Positions 5,777 to 14,961 of a stretch of 35,066 nt of DNA are shown here, in pieces. The stretch comes from a candidate division WOR-3 bacterium. Lineage in GTDB: Bacteria > Hydrothermota > Tepidihabitantia > SM23-42. The notes beneath the pieces were generated by a model, which saw only the letters and a program-made list of their open reading frames with translations, searched no databases and had not been told where the DNA came from. Location: contig DRIG01000058.1 of the NCBI GenBank assembly GCA_011052815.1, forward strand, positions 1 to 35,066, read 5' to 3'. The first letter of the stretch is position 1, and the number at the start of each line of letters is the position of its first letter. A program made the translations under genes and the position numbers.

Positions 5777-6193
5777 ATGAGAATAATGGCTGTTGATTAC
5801 GGCAGGAAGCGTGTCGGAATTGCAATCACTGATCCTCTTTGTGTGATATCCCAGCCGTTTCTTACACTCAACGTCAGCTCGGATAAAGAGCTTATCATTC
5901 GACTTAAGTGTCTCATAAAAGAGAATCAGGTGGGTTGTATTCTGATCGGTAATCCCCTTTCGCATAAAGGAGAAGCGACTGAAATATCAAAAGATATCCA
6001 GCGGTTTTTGAAACGGCTGAAGAAATCGGTGGATATCGAGGTCATTCTCTGGGACGAACGCTTTACGAGTAAATATGCATTGAATCTGTTGAAGAGCCAT
6101 GGTTTTAAATACAAAAGACAGAAGGTTGATGAGATCGCCGCCTGTATTATGCTCGATGAGTATCTTAAGTCACAACCTATATGTCCGGTATGA
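5777..6193 (+). CDS. ruvX: RuvX/YqgF-type Holliday junction resolvase-like nuclease
   Basis: Small RNase H-fold protein of 138 residues, the usual family length. The first acidic residue is Asp7 in MAVDYGRKRVGIA. Other family elements follow: a LIGNPLS strand, WDERFTS, and the terminal DEIAACIMLDEYL helix carrying the last acidic residue. Members act in 16S rRNA 5' maturation and have been linked to Holliday-junction processing. It is the first gene of a five-gene plus-strand operon, with AAGGAG spaced 8 bp from the ATG. The mltG start lies inside its last codons, a ruvX-mltG pairing that occurs in many bacteria. Confidence 0.92.
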   Translation: MRIMAVDYGRKRVGIAITDPLCVISQPFLTLNVSSDKELIIRLKCLIKENQVGCILIGNPLSHKGEATEISKDIQRFLKRLKKSVDIEVILWDERFTSKYALNLLKSHGFKYKRQKVDEIAACIMLDEYLKSQPICPV

Positions 6194-7152
6194 AAAGACG
6201 GATAATCGCACTTTCAATCCTCATTATTATATTTTTCATCTGGTGGCAACCGATCAATCTCGGCGCGACTGAGGTCACCATTCCGAAAGGGGTGAGTGCC
6301 AAAGAGATTGCAGAATTCCTCGCCCGGTATCAGATCGTCAGGGATGTCCACGAATTCCTTTTCTGGTTGAAGATATCCGGAAAAGAGAAGGAATTGAAGT
6401 CCGGCACCTATCAACTGCAGAGATACCGAAATCCACTTTATGTAATCAACGAACTCTCGCACGGCGGCAAGTCGGATATTCTTGTTACGATTCCCGAAGG
6501 ACTGACTCTTTATGAAACCGCGGAGATTCTTGAAATTAACGGGGTGATAAATAAAGAACATTTCCTCGCTCTGTGTAATGATCAGGATTTTATAAGAGAA
6601 GCGGGGTTGAAAGGAAATTCTTTGGAGGGGTATCTTTTCCCTGATACTTATTCTTTTAATCCGAGTCAGAGTGATTCGGAGATTATTATGACATTTGTCG
6701 ATAATTTCAAAAAACATCTCAAGAAATTTTCTCTGGAGAAAGTCGATTCGATATATCAAATTATCATTCTCGCTTCAATGGTGGAAAAAGAAGCGAAGTT
6801 TGAGGATGAAAGACCGATAATCGCAAAGGTCTTTCTTAATAGATTAAGACATAACCGACCTTTAGAATCGTGTGCGACTGTTTTTTACGCCTTGAAAAAG
6901 ATCGACTATGATAAGTATCGGACAAAGACCAAACTGCTCGACCGCGACTTACGGGTGAACTCACCGTACAACACCTATCTCCATACCGGCCTTCCTCCGG
7001 CTCCAATCTGTTCACCGGGCGAAGGTTCGATCAAAGCGGTTATCTCACCCGCTGATGTGGATTATCTTTACTTCGTCTCGATGGGCAACGGCCGACATCA
7101 TTTTTCGAGAACATTCCGGGAACATATCATTGCAAAGGAAAAATATAAATGA
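6190..7152 (+). CDS. mltG: Endolytic peptidoglycan transglycosylase MltG (YceG)
   Basis: Inner-membrane lytic transglycosylase that cuts nascent glycan strands and terminates their elongation. One N-terminal membrane helix (residues ~4-18) is followed by a LysM-like region (VTIPKGVSAKEIAEFL; later VTIPEGLTLYETAEIL) and the catalytic domain with EGYLFPDTY, SMVEKEAKF (catalytic Glu at about residue 199), VFLNRL, SPYNTYLHTGLPPAPI and the C-terminal FSRTFREH. Another ATG at 6181 is in frame, but the one at 6190 overlaps the ruvX stop as ATGA, the coupling used throughout this region. The stop likewise overlaps the next ATG. The link to the following cyclase genes suggests co-expression of cell-wall growth and signalling. 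Confidence 0.95.
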   Translation: MKRRIIALSILIIIFFIWWQPINLGATEVTIPKGVSAKEIAEFLARYQIVRDVHEFLFWLKISGKEKELKSGTYQLQRYRNPLYVINELSHGGKSDILVTIPEGLTLYETAEILEINGVINKEHFLALCNDQDFIREAGLKGNSLEGYLFPDTYSFNPSQSDSEIIMTFVDNFKKHLKKFSLEKVDSIYQIIILASMVEKEAKFEDERPIIAKVFLNRLRHNRPLESCATVFYALKKIDYDKYRTKTKLLDRDLRVNSPYNTYLHTGLPPAPICSPGEGSIKAVISPADVDYLYFVSMGNGRHHFSRTFREHIIAKEKYK

Positions 7153-9566
7153 AGAGAGCCGAGTTTGAAGACATCATCATCCTGAACACCCCGTATTACA
7201 GGAATCTCGAAAAGACGTACCGTGATACGATTAATTTCACCCGTTATATCGACATCTTGAAGAGGGTGGTTCAGGGTGACGGTTTTATCGAGGCGCTTGA
7301 GAAGAAGGGCGGTAAAGAACTTGTTTATTTAGGCAGGAAAATTTTTTCGCTTCAGGAAGAGTTCGTCACCAATTATATCCAGTTTTTGTCCGACGATTCA
7401 CTGGTGAATAAGTGGGAGAAGTTTTTTGAAAGATACAGCACCCAGCTCTTTGAAATTTATGAGAATTTCGTTGCCGGGGAGAGTAATAAAATCCTCATAT
7501 TTGAAATCGTTAATCGAAAATTATTACGTGATTTTTTGACCAAACAGACCGTCAATAAACCACTTGAACAACGGATGAATATCTCCGAGCGTTTCGGTGT
7601 GGTCGTGAATCAGTTGTTCAGCTATATCCGCAATTCACTGACCAAGAATATTCCGGTTGCGGATGCACTCATAGTCAGCAGTTACGAGAAGATTCCTTTC
7701 CTGCCGCGATGCAGCCACAGTGAAACGATGAAATTGCTGAGCAGATGTTTTCTTGAAAAGGGACTTCCCGAGCCCGTATTCACCGCGATGATAAAAAATA
7801 TCATGATTTCCTACTATGTCGCCACGAAAGAAAAGGTGATCAATGCGATAAACTCTCTGACATATTTAAACAGAGATAAGATCATGGAGATTTTCAAATC
7901 ACATTTTTTCTTTCCCGACGACGACAGTTTAAATGAGATACTGGAATTGCTTAAGAAGAAAGCATTCACCATGCTGGAAAGCAACAAGGAGAAGAGGAAC
8001 ACCGTCGACAAAAAAATCAGAGAGATGAAACAGAAGATAAAAGAGACCACGAACGCCATTAAAGAGGAATTGATGAATCTTACCGAGAACTTTTCGACTG
8101 AAGAATCGGTTGATAATATATTGAAGAAACTGCGGCGGAACTTGATTGGTTATGGATATGATCTGCGGTTTCTTAAAAACGAATATGAGGAATATGTGAA
8201 GAAAGACAGCGGGCTGAAGAGTATTCTCAACTTCAAAACCAGCGATCTGCAGAAATTCATCTTTAAAAACGAGTGGGATCCCTACCTAATTCTCTTTTTC
8301 AACACCACCCGCAAAATACCGGAGGAACGTCTTCAATTGTTGATAAAAAATGTTATGGGTGAAATCAAAGGCAATAAAACGGCTTTGGAGGTGATGAGCA
8401 GATACAAGATATCCGGATTTCTGAAAGAAAAATACAACGGTGATGCGATTATGGAAAAATTCAATCTTATCATAGACCAGGTGATATTACCTCTGGTAAA
8501 GTCGTTCCTTCTGGAAGAGTTGATCGAATACTATCCCAAACTTTCCGGAGGATTACCCAGTGAGGGAATCCGTTATCTTTCTGAAGAAGCGTTAGCCGGC
8601 AGGGTGAATCTGGTGGAGAAAGAGATGAATGTCATGACACCGAAAAAGACTGTTTCGCCCCTGGCTATTTCTCACTTCAAAAATTTGATTTCCGTGCTCA
8701 TCTACGACATCAGGGGTTCTACCTTCATGGGAACCAAGCTGCGGGACGCAAAGCGGGAAAACGAAATCAGAAATTATTTCCAGGAGTCGATGTTGGCGGC
8801 GGTTGAAAAATACGGTGGTATTCCGATAAAAGATACGGGTGACGGCGGTATCGTGTTGTTCGCTGCGAATAATCATGATATAAAGAATAAAAAGACAACA
8901 GAGCTTGAAGGCGGGAGTGTTCTTTCCGCTGTTCGCAGCGGTCTTGAGATGGTGCAGTGCGCCAAGAATTTCGTCCAGGAGAACATAAACAAATATCAGG
9001 ACTGGTTTCGTGAAACAGAGGAGCGGAAGATCAACTTTGAGGGAGCCACTTATGCGACACTTCCTCCGTCCTATCAATCGATCTTTCAAATCGGGGTGGG
9101 AATCGCTTCAGGCGCCTATCCGAAAGAGGTCTATCTGGACAAGAATGCGTTCGGAGAACTCGATCTTACGGGAATGCTGGTGCGGGAAGCCAATTTTTAT
9201 TCCAAGGTCAAGGCAAAGTCCAAATCAACGGTGATCTGTGACGACGCCACCGTATATAATCTGTTGTTGAATGTCAACAAATTTTCTTTCTTAAGTGAAA
9301 CGGGATTGAGAATAGACCCGCTGCTTCTCGATATCGAACAGGGATTAGAGTACTGGATCAACCAGAAGGTCGCGCGTCGGGGATTCATCCTCGATCTTTA
9401 CAAAATTTTCGTAACCCAGCTGGGACAGGAAGTATCCCGACCAGGAAGCCTCAAGATCATGCTCGGGATCTTTGACATAGAGATAGACGAGACCGGTGAG
9501 ATCAAAGACGGCAAAGGCGGTCGAGGGAAATTCCTTTTTGAGGTATCGTCGGAGGCGGTTAAATGA
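7149..9566 (+). CDS. Divergent class III nucleotide cyclase-domain protein (paralogue 1)
   Basis: Soluble-looking protein of 805 residues. Residues 1-510 are mostly helical with charged coiled-coil-like stretches (about 265-320) and match no domain I recognise. Residues ~515-700 resemble a class III adenylate/guanylate cyclase. Metal-binding Asp520 lies in YDIRGST and Asp565 in KDTGDGG; Lys561 is at the adenine-selecting position, and IGVGIASG matches the strand after the core helix. At 678-685 the expected VNxAxRL reads VREANFYS, so the transition-state Asn and Arg are not in their normal places. About 85 residues separate the GDG and IGVGIASG motifs, more than usual. An ATGA overlap couples it to mltG and to its paralogue. 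A cyclic nucleotide is the most likely product, but a degenerate sensor or a different nucleotide chemistry is possible. Confidence 0.72.
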   Translation: MKRAEFEDIIILNTPYYRNLEKTYRDTINFTRYIDILKRVVQGDGFIEALEKKGGKELVYLGRKIFSLQEEFVTNYIQFLSDDSLVNKWEKFFERYSTQLFEIYENFVAGESNKILIFEIVNRKLLRDFLTKQTVNKPLEQRMNISERFGVVVNQLFSYIRNSLTKNIPVADALIVSSYEKIPFLPRCSHSETMKLLSRCFLEKGLPEPVFTAMIKNIMISYYVATKEKVINAINSLTYLNRDKIMEIFKSHFFFPDDDSLNEILELLKKKAFTMLESNKEKRNTVDKKIREMKQKIKETTNAIKEELMNLTENFSTEESVDNILKKLRRNLIGYGYDLRFLKNEYEEYVKKDSGLKSILNFKTSDLQKFIFKNEWDPYLILFFNTTRKIPEERLQLLIKNVMGEIKGNKTALEVMSRYKISGFLKEKYNGDAIMEKFNLIIDQVILPLVKSFLLEELIEYYPKLSGGLPSEGIRYLSEEALAGRVNLVEKEMNVMTPKKTVSPLAISHFKNLISVLIYDIRGSTFMGTKLRDAKRENEIRNYFQESMLAAVEKYGGIPIKDTGDGGIVLFAANNHDIKNKKTTELEGGSVLSAVRSGLEMVQCAKNFVQENINKYQDWFRETEERKINFEGATYATLPPSYQSIFQIGVGIASGAYPKEVYLDKNAFGELDLTGMLVREANFYSKVKAKSKSTVICDDATVYNLLLNVNKFSFLSETGLRIDPLLLDIEQGLEYWINQKVARRGFILDLYKIFVTQLGQEVSRPGSLKIMLGIFDIEIDETGEIKDGKGGRGKFLFEVSSEAVK

Positions 9567-11827
9567 ACAAATACCATATTTCTCAGATCCAGGATTATCT
9601 TGAATATAACAGTGAATATTGTCGATTATTGAAAGAGCGCTTTATCAACGAAAAGAAGTATTCACAGAATCTGTCTTTGATCAAGCAGGGGTTCGCTTTT
9701 TTGGGGATATCCGATGCACCTTTGAAGATTTTTGAAGGAAGGAGTAATTTTGTTATATGGCTGGGCCGCCGGGTGGTTGAGTATGAAGGTGCGGAACTGG
9801 CGCTCTATATCGGTCACAAGAAAATGGGATTACCCATTCCTGACGGACTCGTTGAAAAGTGCCCGCATAATGTCATTGAATTGATTGAAAGAGCGGGACA
9901 GCGTGAGTATATCCAGAAGTTCAAGAAAGAGTTGAAGGCGGTTTCATTCTCCCCTGAAATATTTTTGATCGTTCATAGTTCTTTGTTGCAGGCGCGTACC
10001 GAACATCTGCTTCCGAGTTTGTTGTCGGATATCGATCGGATAGTATGTCGAAATATAAAAGAAGCCGTGGAAAAGATCCCCCGTGTGTATCTGGATTATC
10101 TGTCCCAGCCGTCTTTTCTTAAGGTGGTAAAGAAAATTTCCTCTCTCGTCCGGGAGATCAAGACCAAAATGGAACAGGAATTGAGAGATATAACCCTTTA
10201 TTCTTTACGTCTGAAAGAACAACTGCGGGAACTTTATCTCGAGGCGGATAGAGGACTTAAAGAGATCATCGAGAACGACGTCGAACAGGGTGAGGATATC
10301 AACATAATCACCCAGAAGACGTCGAATCTTTTCTCCCGTCTGGACAGATTGTTTCTTGGAAATATATATCACCTTAAGGACTATGAAAAGAGAAAGGTGG
10401 AGATAGAAGCATTCTTGCAGCAGGAGGAGGAGTTTAAATATCGACCCGAACGAAAGACTTTGAACAGAAGAAAGAAAACGAGCGAACTCTTTGATGAATA
10501 TATGTTCTATCTTCGATTCGGCAACTTGACCAAAGAAGAAGACAGGAAGTTTGCGAAGATCCTGACTCAGGAATTTGAACAACTGCACAAACAGAAGAAT
10601 CCCAGTGTCGCCCTTTTGAATAAATTCGAGAAGCGTGGACTTTTGTCTGTGGAGATCGATTTTGATGCGATAAAAGAAGCCTATCATTCTTTTATGAAAC
10701 AGGTGATTATTCCGTATCAGATAGGTCAGTGCCTGTTTGATCTGGTGCAATGCTTTCCTCCGCCGGCAGAACAGCCAAAGAGGTTGATATACGACCTGGC
10801 GAATCTGAAGATACTTTCTCTTGAAGGAAAGAACATATTGACGGTTGTTGACAAAAAACAGAATTATCCTGGTGAGATCCGAAAATTCGTTGAGACATTC
10901 AGAAAGTGTATCACGATTCTGGTCTATGATATCCGCGGTTCTTCGTATATGGGTGTTAAATTACAGAATGCAGCCAAAGAGCAGAGAATCAAATATAAGT
11001 TCGCCAAGGAGATGGCGGATATCGTCAAAAAGTATGGTGGGTTTCTTCTGAAGGACACCGGCGACGGCGGATTGATCTGGTTCGCGGAAAATTCAGCATC
11101 CCTGTACGCCCATCTTTACACAGAATCAATAACAGGCAGAGGGATAAAACTTCGATCTTCGATCTTTTCCGGCGCCGAATTCGAATTGATTCCGGCGGCT
11201 GATTCGGCGAAGAGGGCGATTCTCTGCGCACGTGATATGGTGCAGAGGGCAGAGGAGTTCATCCGCGCGAATTTTATGCATTACCGTGAGTGGTTTGCCG
11301 ACGTCGCGGAACGGACTCTTGAACTCGACGGAATAACTTATGCGTTGCTTCCTCCGGAATTCAAGAGTTTATTCAGAATCGGAGTGGGCATCGCGTCGGG
11401 CGTACCGATTAAAGATGTCGTCTTTTCTGCTAATTCGTACGGCGATCCGGACCTCGTCGGGCCGATCATTTCCGATGCCAATCTCTATTCCATGGAGCGT
11501 CAGCCCGGCAGGTCAGTGGTAATCTGTGATTCGGCTTCGTTGATCAATTTGATTCTGAACGTCGAGGATTTTGATTACTGCTTTGACGAGGAGGACTTTG
11601 AGAAATATATCAAGAAAGCGGAAGAAGTCAGACAGAACAATCACGGATATAAGTTCGAGGATTTTAAAATTTCCGTCGTCCCCAAAGGGGTTCACTATTT
11701 AGAAGAATTGAACAAAAACAAAGCGGTTGCGTCTGCTGATATCACCGAGATCTATATGCATGAAGATTCCCTTTACAACGATAAACAGAAGAAGATAAAG
11801 TTGTTGTACGAAATAATCAACACCTGA
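9563..11827 (+). CDS. Divergent class III nucleotide cyclase-domain protein (paralogue 2)
   Basis: Protein of 754 residues, paralogous to its upstream neighbour. The N-terminal ~445 residues are helical and unrecognised, with weak shared motifs (WLGRRVVEYEG here, YLGRKIFSLQE there; an F..QVI.P segment before the cyclase domain). The cyclase-like domain has Asp456 in YDIRGSS, Lys497 and Asp501 in KDTGDGG, and IGVGIASG. At 636-643 the sequence ISDANLYS replaces VNxAxRL; the ANxYS core is shared with paralogue 1. The insert before IGVGIASG is also conserved (YREWF...LDGITYALLPPEF). It starts by an ATGA overlap, and its stop overlaps the following start as TGATG. No membrane segment was seen. The two proteins may form a heterodimer, as class III active sites lie at a dimer interface; this is inference. 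Confidence 0.72.
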   Translation: MNKYHISQIQDYLEYNSEYCRLLKERFINEKKYSQNLSLIKQGFAFLGISDAPLKIFEGRSNFVIWLGRRVVEYEGAELALYIGHKKMGLPIPDGLVEKCPHNVIELIERAGQREYIQKFKKELKAVSFSPEIFLIVHSSLLQARTEHLLPSLLSDIDRIVCRNIKEAVEKIPRVYLDYLSQPSFLKVVKKISSLVREIKTKMEQELRDITLYSLRLKEQLRELYLEADRGLKEIIENDVEQGEDINIITQKTSNLFSRLDRLFLGNIYHLKDYEKRKVEIEAFLQQEEEFKYRPERKTLNRRKKTSELFDEYMFYLRFGNLTKEEDRKFAKILTQEFEQLHKQKNPSVALLNKFEKRGLLSVEIDFDAIKEAYHSFMKQVIIPYQIGQCLFDLVQCFPPPAEQPKRLIYDLANLKILSLEGKNILTVVDKKQNYPGEIRKFVETFRKCITILVYDIRGSSYMGVKLQNAAKEQRIKYKFAKEMADIVKKYGGFLLKDTGDGGLIWFAENSASLYAHLYTESITGRGIKLRSSIFSGAEFELIPAADSAKRAILCARDMVQRAEEFIRANFMHYREWFADVAERTLELDGITYALLPPEFKSLFRIGVGIASGVPIKDVVFSANSYGDPDLVGPIISDANLYSMERQPGRSVVICDSASLINLILNVEDFDYCFDEEDFEKYIKKAEEVRQNNHGYKFEDFKISVVPKGVHYLEELNKNKAVASADITEIYMHEDSLYNDKQKKIKLLYEIINT

Positions 11828-13218
11828 TGCAGGTTTTAATCTACGATACAGACCGCCTCAGACTCGCCACCGTGGCGAAGAACCTGCAGAATTTAGGACT
11901 GAACTGGACCGCGGTAACAAAGACCGATGATATAAAAAAACTGATCAGAAAGAGGAAATTTGATCTCCTTGTTCTTGATGGTTCGGCGGTCAGGATACTC
12001 GATCGAATCAAAAAACTGGATTCCTCGATTCCCGTTGTTATTGTTATGGATAAGGACCAGAAGGTCGATTATCAGGAGATTATTCTGTCAGGAATCGTTG
12101 GATTGATTATCCGTCCTTATCGCCTTGATTTTTTCAAGAAGGTGGTCGAGAAAGCCGTCAAACATCGGGAAAAAGCCATCTTGAATTTAAAGACCGTGGC
12201 GTCGCTGAAGCAGAAGATTCAGGAACTCCAGACCCTGAATGAAATTGTTCAGGCGATAAATTCATCATTGGAACCCGGGGAGATTCTGCGCACCATTATG
12301 GAGAAGACCGCGGATTTGATCAAGGCTGAGGGCTGGTCGGTTCTCTTCCTCGAACACGACAAAGGGGAACTGGTTTTTGAAGCCGCAGCCGGCGAAGCCG
12401 GGAAAAAACTTTTGGGAATGCGACTCAAGGTGGGACAGGGGGTCGCCGGCTGGGTCGCCCGTTACGGCCAGTCGCTTATCGTGCCCGATGTGACAAAAGA
12501 CCCGCGTTTCTATTCAGGAGTGGATAAGAAGACGAAGTTTACTACAAAATCGATACTCTGTGTTCCGATGAAAAGCCGCGATAAGATCATCGGGGTGGTT
12601 GAGGTGGTTAATAAGATCGGTGGCGAGCCGTTTACCGACGATGATCTTGAGATATTCGAGAATCTGGTCGCCCACATCACCATCGCCCTGCAGAACGCCG
12701 CGATGTACCGTAAGATGGAAGAGGCGAGTTTGATCGACGACCTCACCCAGCTTTATAACAGCCGTTATTGCAATCAATACCTGGATAAATTACTGGAAGG
12801 ACGCAGGGGAGCGCCGGCTCTTGTGTCATTGATCTTTCTGGATATCGATTTTTTCAAACTGGTCGATGATAACTTCGGTCATCTTGTAGGAAGTGAGACA
12901 CTGAAACGGGTGGGTGAACGTTTGAAGAATGTCGTCAGAGGCGGCGACGTGGTCGTACGTTACGGAGGCGATGAATATATCGTAATCCTACCGAATACCG
13001 ATAAGAAGACCGCCACTGTAATCGCCGAAAGGATCAGGAAAGAGATCAATTCCAAACCTTTTAACGCCGTGGGCAGGAAGAAGTTCAACATCTCGGTGAC
13101 GCTCGGCGTCGCCACAAGTCCTGAGGATGCAAAAACACGGGATGAACTTATTGGTAAGGCTGACAAGGCGATGTATGAAGGGAAACTTTCAGGCAGGGAT
13201 AAGGTCGTCGTGGCTTAA
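11827..13218 (+). CDS. REC-GAF-GGDEF diguanylate cyclase
   Basis: Makes cyclic di-GMP from two GTP. Residues 1-120 form a receiver-like domain with Asp51 in LLVLDGS at the phospho-acceptor place; the usual Thr/Ser is not evident (VIVMDKD) and the conserved Lys is Arg (IIRPYR), so it may not switch in the ordinary way. A linking helix leads to a GAF domain (about 145-295). The GGDEF domain (about 300-463) has the active motif RYGGDEY with GGDEY at 380-384, and an RxxD inhibitory site (R371-D374) five residues before it, so product feedback is expected. The ATG overlaps the stop of cyclase paralogue 2. It ends the five-gene operon and faces the antiporter gene 3 bp away. Confidence 0.93.
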   Translation: MQVLIYDTDRLRLATVAKNLQNLGLNWTAVTKTDDIKKLIRKRKFDLLVLDGSAVRILDRIKKLDSSIPVVIVMDKDQKVDYQEIILSGIVGLIIRPYRLDFFKKVVEKAVKHREKAILNLKTVASLKQKIQELQTLNEIVQAINSSLEPGEILRTIMEKTADLIKAEGWSVLFLEHDKGELVFEAAAGEAGKKLLGMRLKVGQGVAGWVARYGQSLIVPDVTKDPRFYSGVDKKTKFTTKSILCVPMKSRDKIIGVVEVVNKIGGEPFTDDDLEIFENLVAHITIALQNAAMYRKMEEASLIDDLTQLYNSRYCNQYLDKLLEGRRGAPALVSLIFLDIDFFKLVDDNFGHLVGSETLKRVGERLKNVVRGGDVVVRYGGDEYIVILPNTDKKTATVIAERIRKEINSKPFNAVGRKKFNISVTLGVATSPEDAKTRDELIGKADKAMYEGKLSGRDKVVVA

Positions 13219-13221
13219 CGA

Positions 13222-14421
13222 TTAATATTCATGGGGTGATTTCCCCACCTCTCCGGCTTTTTCAAGTGCTATCTTTACAAAGAACGGTCCGATCAATTCA
13301 TAGATTACGGTCGTCACAATGATCGTCGAGAGGATTGTGTCGCCGATACTGTTTGTAAAATATGTCTTTGCAACCAATGCCAGACCGATCGCCACACCGG
13401 CCTGAGGAGCAAGTCCTAAACCAAGATATTTTTTTATTTTTTTGCTTGCTTTTGCAAGATATGCCCCGCTGAAGGCACCCAGCATTTCTCCGGGTAGCCT
13501 TGTCAATACATAGACGATGCCGATGAGACCGAGTGCCGGGATGTTCGGGATTTCAAGGCTCGCACCTGCAAGGACAAAAAAGAGAAGATAGAGCGGTGGA
13601 TCGAATTTTTTCAGGATTTCAAAGATTTCATCACATAATTTTATTCGGTTCGCTATCACCGCACCGAAGAACATATTCGCCAGCAGCAATGAAACATTCA
13701 ACATAATCGACAGACCGCTGTTTATTAAGATGATCCCGAGTGTGTAAATCAGAATGTTGGATGAAGTTCTCAGATACTTTAAAAAATATGAGTACACAAA
13801 TCCCAAGGATATGCCGAGACCCAGACCGCCGAGCACTTCCCAGAATCCGTGGACGACGTCGGAAAATATATTTGCGAAGATACCTATATGGGCGCTTGCA
13901 AAACTCTTTGCAAGGGCAAGACAGAAGGCGAATAGGATTATACCCCATGCGTCGTCGATCGCCACAACTCCCAACAGCGTATCAGTGAAAGGTCCTTTTG
14001 CACGATATTCACGGGTTACCATAACCACGGCTGCCGGAGCCGTAGCCGGTGCGATCGCCGCTAAAATCAGCGCAATCGGTAGCGGAGTTTTAATAATGAA
14101 AAAAAGAAAGAAAAAAACCAGCGAGAAAGAACCGATTACCTCACCGAGGGATATGGCGAGCACTGATTTTCCGATTCTGCGTAACTTTGTAATCGTGAAG
14201 TTCTGACCGAGACTTACGGCGATCAACCCCAGTGCTATATTGGAGATGAACGTGGTGGAGTTAAGTACGTCTTCTGCGATTAATTTAAGGATATGAGGTC
14301 CTAAAATTATGCCGAAGACGATATAAGCTGTAACTGAGGGGAATTTTAATTTTTTGAATAATCGAGCGCCGATTAGTCCGATGGTTAGAATAAGACCGAG
14401 ACTAAGGAGCGTATTCAGCAT
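13222..14421 (-). CDS. CPA2-type cation/proton antiporter
   Basis: Membrane antiporter of 399 residues with about 11-13 hydrophobic segments covering the whole protein. It begins with the FPSVTAYIVFGIILGPH motif of the Na+/H+ exchanger family. The core has ATAPAAVVMVTREY followed by the ion-binding acidic pair in VVAIDDAWG; two adjacent Asp residues are typical of electrogenic CPA2 members. Na+ or K+ could be the counter-ion. No C-terminal TrkA domain is present; a CBS-pair protein encoded 2 bp upstream probably acts as its regulatory partner. It converges with the diguanylate cyclase gene with almost no space for a terminator. Confidence 0.88.
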   Translation of the reverse strand: MLNTLLSLGLILTIGLIGARLFKKLKFPSVTAYIVFGIILGPHILKLIAEDVLNSTTFISNIALGLIAVSLGQNFTITKLRRIGKSVLAISLGEVIGSFSLVFFFLFFIIKTPLPIALILAAIAPATAPAAVVMVTREYRAKGPFTDTLLGVVAIDDAWGIILFAFCLALAKSFASAHIGIFANIFSDVVHGFWEVLGGLGLGISLGFVYSYFLKYLRTSSNILIYTLGIILINSGLSIMLNVSLLLANMFFGAVIANRIKLCDEIFEILKKFDPPLYLLFFVLAGASLEIPNIPALGLIGIVYVLTRLPGEMLGAFSGAYLAKASKKIKKYLGLGLAPQAGVAIGLALVAKTYFTNSIGDTILSTIIVTTVIYELIGPFFVKIALEKAGEVGKSPHEY

Positions 14422-14423
14422 TC

Positions 14424-14894
14424 TCAGACGACGCCCTTGCTTTTGAAGATACTCATAACCACATCAAACAATCCAACAAACCCTATAAATTTTTTTTCTT
14501 TATTAATAACCGGCAGTTGCTCTCTGTTATGCAGTCTCATCAGACGGAATGCCTCTTTGATCGGCAGGTCTTCATCAATTGCAAGAAATTTCGTGTTCAT
14601 GATATCTTCGGCGACGATGAGCTGTCCCATTTCCGGAGACAATTCGATTTCAGTGATTTCAATCGGTTTTTCATCCAGAAACGGGATCGTTTTGAGAATT
14701 TCCGGTTCCTCGGGTCGGAAGACATCAATAAGATTCTTGAGTGAGATAATACCGACTAAAAGGTTTTCTTCTTCAACGACCGGCACCAGTGGAAAGGTAT
14801 GAAATTTTTTGAATGTCATGAGTATTTTTCTTAACGTAGTATAGCGCTGGACCGTTATCACCTTTTTACAGGTAATCTTTCTTACCTTTTCCAT
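14424..14894 (-). CDS. Two-CBS-domain regulatory protein
   Basis: Cytosolic protein of about 156 residues made of a CBS pair. CBS1 runs from KKVITVQRYTTLRKILMTF to LVGIISLKNLIDVF, CBS2 from AEDIMNTKFLAIDEDLPIKEAF to FIGFVGLFDVVMSI. CBS pairs bind adenine nucleotides and gate linked transporters or enzymes; here the antiporter gene follows after 2 bp, so control of cation/proton exchange by energy state is the simplest inference. I chose the ATG at 14894 because a GAGGTGG sequence lies just upstream; a GTG two codons earlier is also in frame. A TTGACA/TATCAT promoter lies about 70 bp upstream. Confidence 0.85.
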   Translation of the reverse strand: MEKVRKITCKKVITVQRYTTLRKILMTFKKFHTFPLVPVVEEENLLVGIISLKNLIDVFRPEEPEILKTIPFLDEKPIEITEIELSPEMGQLIVAEDIMNTKFLAIDEDLPIKEAFRLMRLHNREQLPVINKEKKFIGFVGLFDVVMSIFKSKGVV

Positions 14895-14961
14895 AACCAC
14901 CTCAATTTTTTCTTAAGCTTAAAAAAATAACTAAAAACTCATACTTCCTGTTCACGGAATA

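Follow-up and report, generated by a model that had tools for sequence, protein, structure and literature searches.

A two-clade family of divergent class III cyclase-homology proteins encoded beside a diguanylate cyclase in WOR-3 bacteria

Class III nucleotidyl cyclases (PF00211), such as CyaB (3r5g) and Cya2 (2w01), have a characteristic fold and motif order, two metal-binding Asp residues, and a Lys and an Asp at the positions that contact adenine. The two adjacent proteins described here, A and B, are like them in all of these respects. They differ from class III cyclases in lacking the transition-state Arg, in the replacement of the ribose-binding Asn (in A, and in B of the class to which the source genome belongs), in a long insert that separates the metal motif from the GIASG strand, in having no PF00211 match at E<=1, and in an N-terminus of no known family. 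The heterodimeric cyclases, soluble guanylate cyclase (PMC3591389) and the mammalian C1/C2 pair, also consist of two diverged paralogous subunits; like them, A and B would be expected to have a common interface with unequal sites. In those enzymes one side gives the Asn and the Arg and the other gives the metal Asps, whereas A and B both keep the metal Asps and neither has the Arg. The roles of the corresponding adenylyl cyclase residues, N1025 and R1029, have been described (PMC3591389).

The gene after B encodes a putative diguanylate cyclase, here called DGC. It is like other GAF-GGDEF diguanylate cyclases in its GGDEY/F motif and, in most members of the type found here, its I-site. It is unlike typical ones in that it adjoins a cyclase-homology gene and in that the receiver Lys is replaced by Arg in most members. 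Cross-talk from cAMP to c-di-GMP has a precedent in Bd1971, which is reported to be a cAMP-sensing EAL enzyme, a c-di-GMP phosphodiesterase (PMC6717892). A and B with DGC would similarly tie an adenine nucleotide to the level of c-di-GMP. Unlike Bd1971, itself reported as the phosphodiesterase that senses cAMP, A and B are a separate cyclase-like pair beside a synthase. In the literature library searched, no paper mentioned Stahlbacteria together with cyclases, WOR-3 together with cyclic di-GMP, or mltG together with ruvX, and a search combining mltG, diguanylate cyclase and operon gave one incidental match only.

The window, the whole 35,066-nucleotide stretch that was analysed, comes from a 2.39-Mb, 97.6%-complete WOR-3 ("Stahlbacteria") genome, and all comparisons rest on MAG data. 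Five genes run in the same direction (Table 1), with overlaps of 13 nt (ruvX/mltG), 4 nt (mltG/A), 4 nt (A/B) and 1 nt (B/DGC). An earlier sequence-only reading had described two neighbouring cyclase-like proteins joined by overlapping stop and start codons to each other, to mltG and to a REC-GAF-GGDEF protein, behind ruvX. The open reading frames and overlaps are as it described, and the neighbours match PF03652, PF02618 and PF00990 (the last at 3.1e-41); the receiver match of DGC, at 26.3 bits, falls below the Pfam cut-off. The same ruvX-mltG-A-B-DGC order recurs in genomes of the window's family wherever contigs are long enough to test, so the run is not a chance arrangement, and the expectation that these genes are conserved together holds within that family.

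The next gene after DGC, on the opposite strand, encodes an antiporter (13222-14421). Most relatives in family f1 (L024-L040) have, in the place of 13222-14900, genes for a CBS-domain protein and for one or two Na+/H+ antiporters 3' of DGC on the same strand, mostly within about 45-80 nt. The antiporter-region genes of the window and of genus g10 (L031, L046) are convergent to DGC, of a different type, and closer to each other.

Table 1. Features of the run from ruvX to DGC (window positions)
Feature	Coordinates	Strand	Evidence or remark
ruvX (yqgF), first in run	5777..6193	+	PF03652 4.8e-35; position conserved
mltG, endolytic transglycosylase	6181..7152	+	PF02618 4.7e-81; TIGR00247
Gene A, 805 aa, A-clade cyclase-homology protein	7149..9566	+	
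A residues 1-506, N-terminal helical region, homologous to that of B, no known family	7149..8666	+	AF2 mostly helical, good pLDDT; hhalign E 1.6e-44
A residues 507-778, class III cyclase-homology domain and tail	8667..9482	+	Foldseek, hhalign; AF2 poor here
A motif YDIRGST, metal Asp D520	8703..8723	+	Asp 92/92
A motif KDTGDGG, Lys K561 (adenine position) and metal Asp D565	8829..8849	+	Lys and Asp 92/92
A motif LDLTGMLVREANFYS: D672 at adenine-pair position, R679 for Asn, F683 for transition-state Arg	9159..9203	+	
Gene B, 754 aa, B-clade cyclase-homology protein	9563..11827	+	ATGA overlap with A
B residues 1-435, N-terminal helical region	9563..10867	+	AF2 pLDDT mostly 80-95; no Pfam family
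B residues 436-707, class III cyclase-homology domain	10868..11683	+	Foldseek matches 6fht, 3r5g, 2w01
B motif YDIRGS, metal Asp D456	10925..10942	+	Residue survey, 92 sequences
B motif KDTGDGG, K497 and metal Asp D501	11051..11071	+	Residue survey, 92 sequences
B motif PDLVGPIISDANLYS: D630 kept, S637 for Asn, L641 for Arg	11447..11491	+	
DGC, 463 aa, receiver-like, GAF and GGDEF	11827..13218	+	One base in common with B stop
DGC RGGD (I-site) and GGDEY active-site motif	12937..12978	+	

The C-terminal class III cyclase fold of A and B is real, though very divergent, and this conclusion is sound. Neither protein reaches the cut-off of any Pfam or NCBIfam model, and 44 orthologous sequences in two alignments gave no coherent Pfam match, with PF00211 not above its cut-off. 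A profile of the family's C-terminal domains finds Pseudomonas aeruginosa CyaB (3r5g) at E 6e-5. The AF2 model of B (md9e500d202eb; pLDDT 78.6, pTM 0.71) was compared with the PDB by Foldseek, and the best 50 matches are all class III cyclases. The three best, 6fht, 3r5g and 2w01, have E values of 6e-4 to 9e-4, with TM scores by target length of 0.61 for 3r5g_A and 0.52 for 2w01_C. The model of A (m9c594025a644) has good pLDDT only in its N-terminal part and is poor in the cyclase region; nearly its whole Foldseek list is again class III cyclases, with weaker scores than B, and both models have low confidence values in their catalytic loops. Profile comparison by hhalign of the family with class III cyclases of the same phylum gave 97.6% and E 1e-11, and control comparisons of the family and N-terminal profiles with GGDEF-protein or MltG profiles gave 0.3% or less.

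The likeness of A to B extends through the N-termini, which align by hhalign over 472 columns, making the two proteins whole-gene paralogues and not merely the bearers of one shared domain. Profile searches of Pfam and NCBIfam and a PDB sequence search found no described family for these regions, in keeping with the proposal that they match no known domain. A known N-terminal domain was rejected as an explanation, as those searches returned only scattered chance matches of the coiled-coil type.

The catalytic residues divide sharply into those kept and those lost. Both metal Asps are invariant in the 92 family sequences surveyed (92/92), as are the Lys of KD.GDGG (92/92) and an Asp that precedes the Asn position by seven residues (92/92). 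The positions of this Lys and Asp correspond to K938 and D1018 of AC2, with which mammalian adenylyl cyclases recognise adenine. Further motifs, including GDGG and N[AS][FY]G, are strongly conserved across the family. No member has Arg or Lys at the transition-state position. The ribose-binding Asn is retained in 23 of the 92, none of them a window protein; its position holds Arg in every A-clade member, Asn in many B proteins, and Ser or Ala in the B proteins of the window's class. For comparison, the printed motifs of 30 canonical class III cyclases from this phylum show the Asn in all 30, and at the Arg position an Arg in 29 and a Lys in one. Since this position is basic in all 30, loss of the transition-state Arg belongs to the A/B family and not to these bacteria. 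Against the features of class III cyclases, then, the metal Asps and the Lys/Asp pair are present in A and B, and the Asn and Arg of VNxAxR are absent along with the PF00211 match. Ordinary cAMP synthesis by A and B is doubtful because the Arg is missing throughout and the Asn is gone from both paralogues in the window's class. The sequence-only reading had suggested production of a cyclic mononucleotide, a suggestion that these losses weaken.

A and B are two ancient clades. In a tree of 81 sequences built with the trait column (the Asn position) removed, all 35 sequences with Arg at that position fall on one side of a branch with support 100/98 and the rest fall opposite; the duplication is therefore older than the families seen. 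All 40 Arg-bearing members of the 92 belong to the A clade. Among 61 genomes, the window's own and its relatives, the pair was matched in 23/23 of the window's family, in 3/4 of its sister family f2 and in the only f3 genome, and in no other class member examined (one weak hit, in G040, was not counted). Of 147 genomes in the phylum, 53 have a match to the B profile. A scan of 84,980 species genomes, which required exact short motifs and may miss more distant relatives, found 63 loci, in WOR-3, TA06 and Edwardsbacteria/UBP2. Several of the MAGs with members (L129, L130, L151, L154-L156, L165) are labelled Cloacimonadota or Acetofilamentum sp.; these labels are probably wrong, because their family members group with WOR-3 sequences in the tree. 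Apparent breaks of the B gene in the bin53 and bin1428 chromosomes (L028, L050, L051) were rejected as artefacts: in these single-contig WOR-3 'chromosomes', runs of N at scaffold joins inside B and DGC mimic gene breaks. A plasmid search gave no match. A defence system of the Pycsar or CBASS kind was also rejected, given no PADLOC match to a cyclase model and a stable, ordered distribution in the window's family.

All 24 loci of the window's class in which both genes are intact have an A/B overlap of exactly 4 nt, which indirectly supports a putative A/B heterodimer. An obligate heterodimer, as first suggested, does not hold for the family. A-clade members are nearly always accompanied by B, and B occurs without A in f11, f20 and f21 and, within the reach of the scan, also in Edwardsbacteria, several of these lineages being near-complete. 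In families f16, f28, f29 and f30 the two genes are separated.

The deepest neighbour link is that of B to the GGDEF protein, which is kept while the upstream genes change. A GGDEF gene is next after B in most lineages, often overlapping it, across four unrelated upstream contexts. Besides mltG, these are pyrR-pyrB-pyrC (L092 by Pfam; L094, L102, L084, L150 and f11 by eye), pilB-pilT-type genes with an MshEN domain (L098 by Pfam; L100, L101 and L162 by eye), and tldD/pmbA (L086 by Pfam; L090 by eye). B lies directly behind the pyrR-pyrB-pyrC-like genes in L084, L092, L094 and L150, and a uridine-kinase-like gene is nearby downstream in L092 and L094, which makes this a pyrimidine-related setting. 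No GGDEF gene adjoins B in f11 or L083. In f29 and f30, gene A comes after ribosomal-protein genes and rpoA (by eye). Partial arrangements occur by lineage: mltG-A (L138, where A comes after mltG), A-B (L083), A-GGDEF (L096, where the GGDEF gene follows A), and B-GGDEF in many. Judged from gene order, these look like pieces of one older arrangement.

The link to mltG is mostly local to the window's lineage. A cell-wall link as the core function was rejected, as the mltG tie is not kept outside the window's class except in L138. The idea of joint signalling across the operon is supported in its c-di-GMP part and weakened in its tie to a glycan-cutting enzyme, given the other surroundings in which A and B are found.

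GGDEY or GGDEF is kept in every complete partner examined, DGC itself having GGDEY. In the DGC receiver the phospho-Asp is kept and the Lys is replaced by Arg. That this bacterium uses c-di-GMP signalling follows from the 12 GGDEF, 10 HD_5 (HD-GYP-type) and 4 MshEN domains of its genome, in which PilZ receptors were not found. The genome also has 14 canonical class III cyclase domains, and CRP-like cNMP-binding domains are present in 27 of 28 genomes. With canonical cyclases, CRP-like proteins, GGDEF, HD_5 and MshEN all in the genome, receivers exist for either a cyclic mononucleotide or a c-di-GMP mechanism. Several of the 14 canonical domains lie in frames of 1,100-1,250 aa (G000, 2.4 Mb; contigs C98, C23, C83 and others), and canonical class III cyclases are also greatly expanded in G002, G017 and G025.

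We propose, as a tentative reading to which we give slightly less than an even chance, that A and B form a heterodimer that binds Mg-ATP, does not cyclise it at normal class III rates, and controls the partner diguanylate cyclase. A and B would be co-translated as its subunits. Their homologous N-terminal helical regions would pair, with a role in sensing or scaffolding, and their C-terminal domains would dimerise head to tail. The interface pockets would hold Mg-ATP through both metal Asps and the adenine-reading Lys/Asp, a prediction made because these residues are kept. Since the transition-state Arg is missing, as is the ribose Asn in this class, no cAMP would be made at normal class III rates. 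Binding or turnover of ATP would then act as a switch on the diguanylate cyclase of the next gene and set local c-di-GMP output. Several observations favour this ATP switch: the loss of the Arg is family-specific, the B-GGDEF linkage is deep, and the GGDEY/F motif is intact in complete partners. Against it stand the near-complete lineages with B and no A, and the lack of an adjoining GGDEF gene in f11 and L083. Perfectly conserved metal ligands also suit an enzyme better than a pure sensor.

The main rival of the ATP switch is a working enzyme with a rewired site, which we consider somewhat unlikely. The Arg that A has in place of the Asn, and that lies one helical turn away from where the Arg usually is, would stabilise the transition state where B gives the metals, and the cAMP or other cNMP would be read by the GAF domain of DGC or by CRP-like proteins. 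The invariant metal and base residues fit such an enzyme, as does the confinement of this Arg to the A clade, and B has lost its Asn twice, each time in lineages having A. Yet B-only lineages keep the family without such an Arg. Partner GAF domains do keep NK-x(n)-F-x3-DL, but this motif is common among GAF domains and lacks its final Glu here, so that it has no diagnostic value for cNMP sensing. CRP-like proteins are widespread, although the 14 canonical cyclases could already supply them. A heterodimer that drives its operon partner to make c-di-GMP, with catalysis rebuilt around the displaced Arg or directed to another nucleotide product, would be a second-messenger relay of a kind not described before; we regard this as unlikely.

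It is quite improbable that the domains use the class III fold for a different nucleotidyl reaction, for instance to release pyrophosphate from ATP or to make a linear or cyclic oligonucleotide. Such a reaction would account for invariant metal and adenine residues beside lost cyclisation-specific ones, and for the additional conserved family motifs. That A and B are independent housekeeping genes, with overlaps that reflect compact operons and no joint function, has an equally low probability: they are apart in four families and their neighbours vary widely, but the B-GGDEF linkage recurs in different surroundings, the A-B overlap is invariant where the genes adjoin in the window's class, and fragments of one arrangement are spread across lineages.

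A and B represent a two-clade protein family that is core to some WOR-3 and Edwardsbacteria lineages and missing from the curated libraries searched. Its members keep the metal-binding and ATP-reading residues of class III cyclases unchanged and have lost the cyclisation residues. The family makes testable the idea that a class III fold may serve as an ATP switch, or carry out different chemistry, and may provide an input to c-di-GMP signalling.
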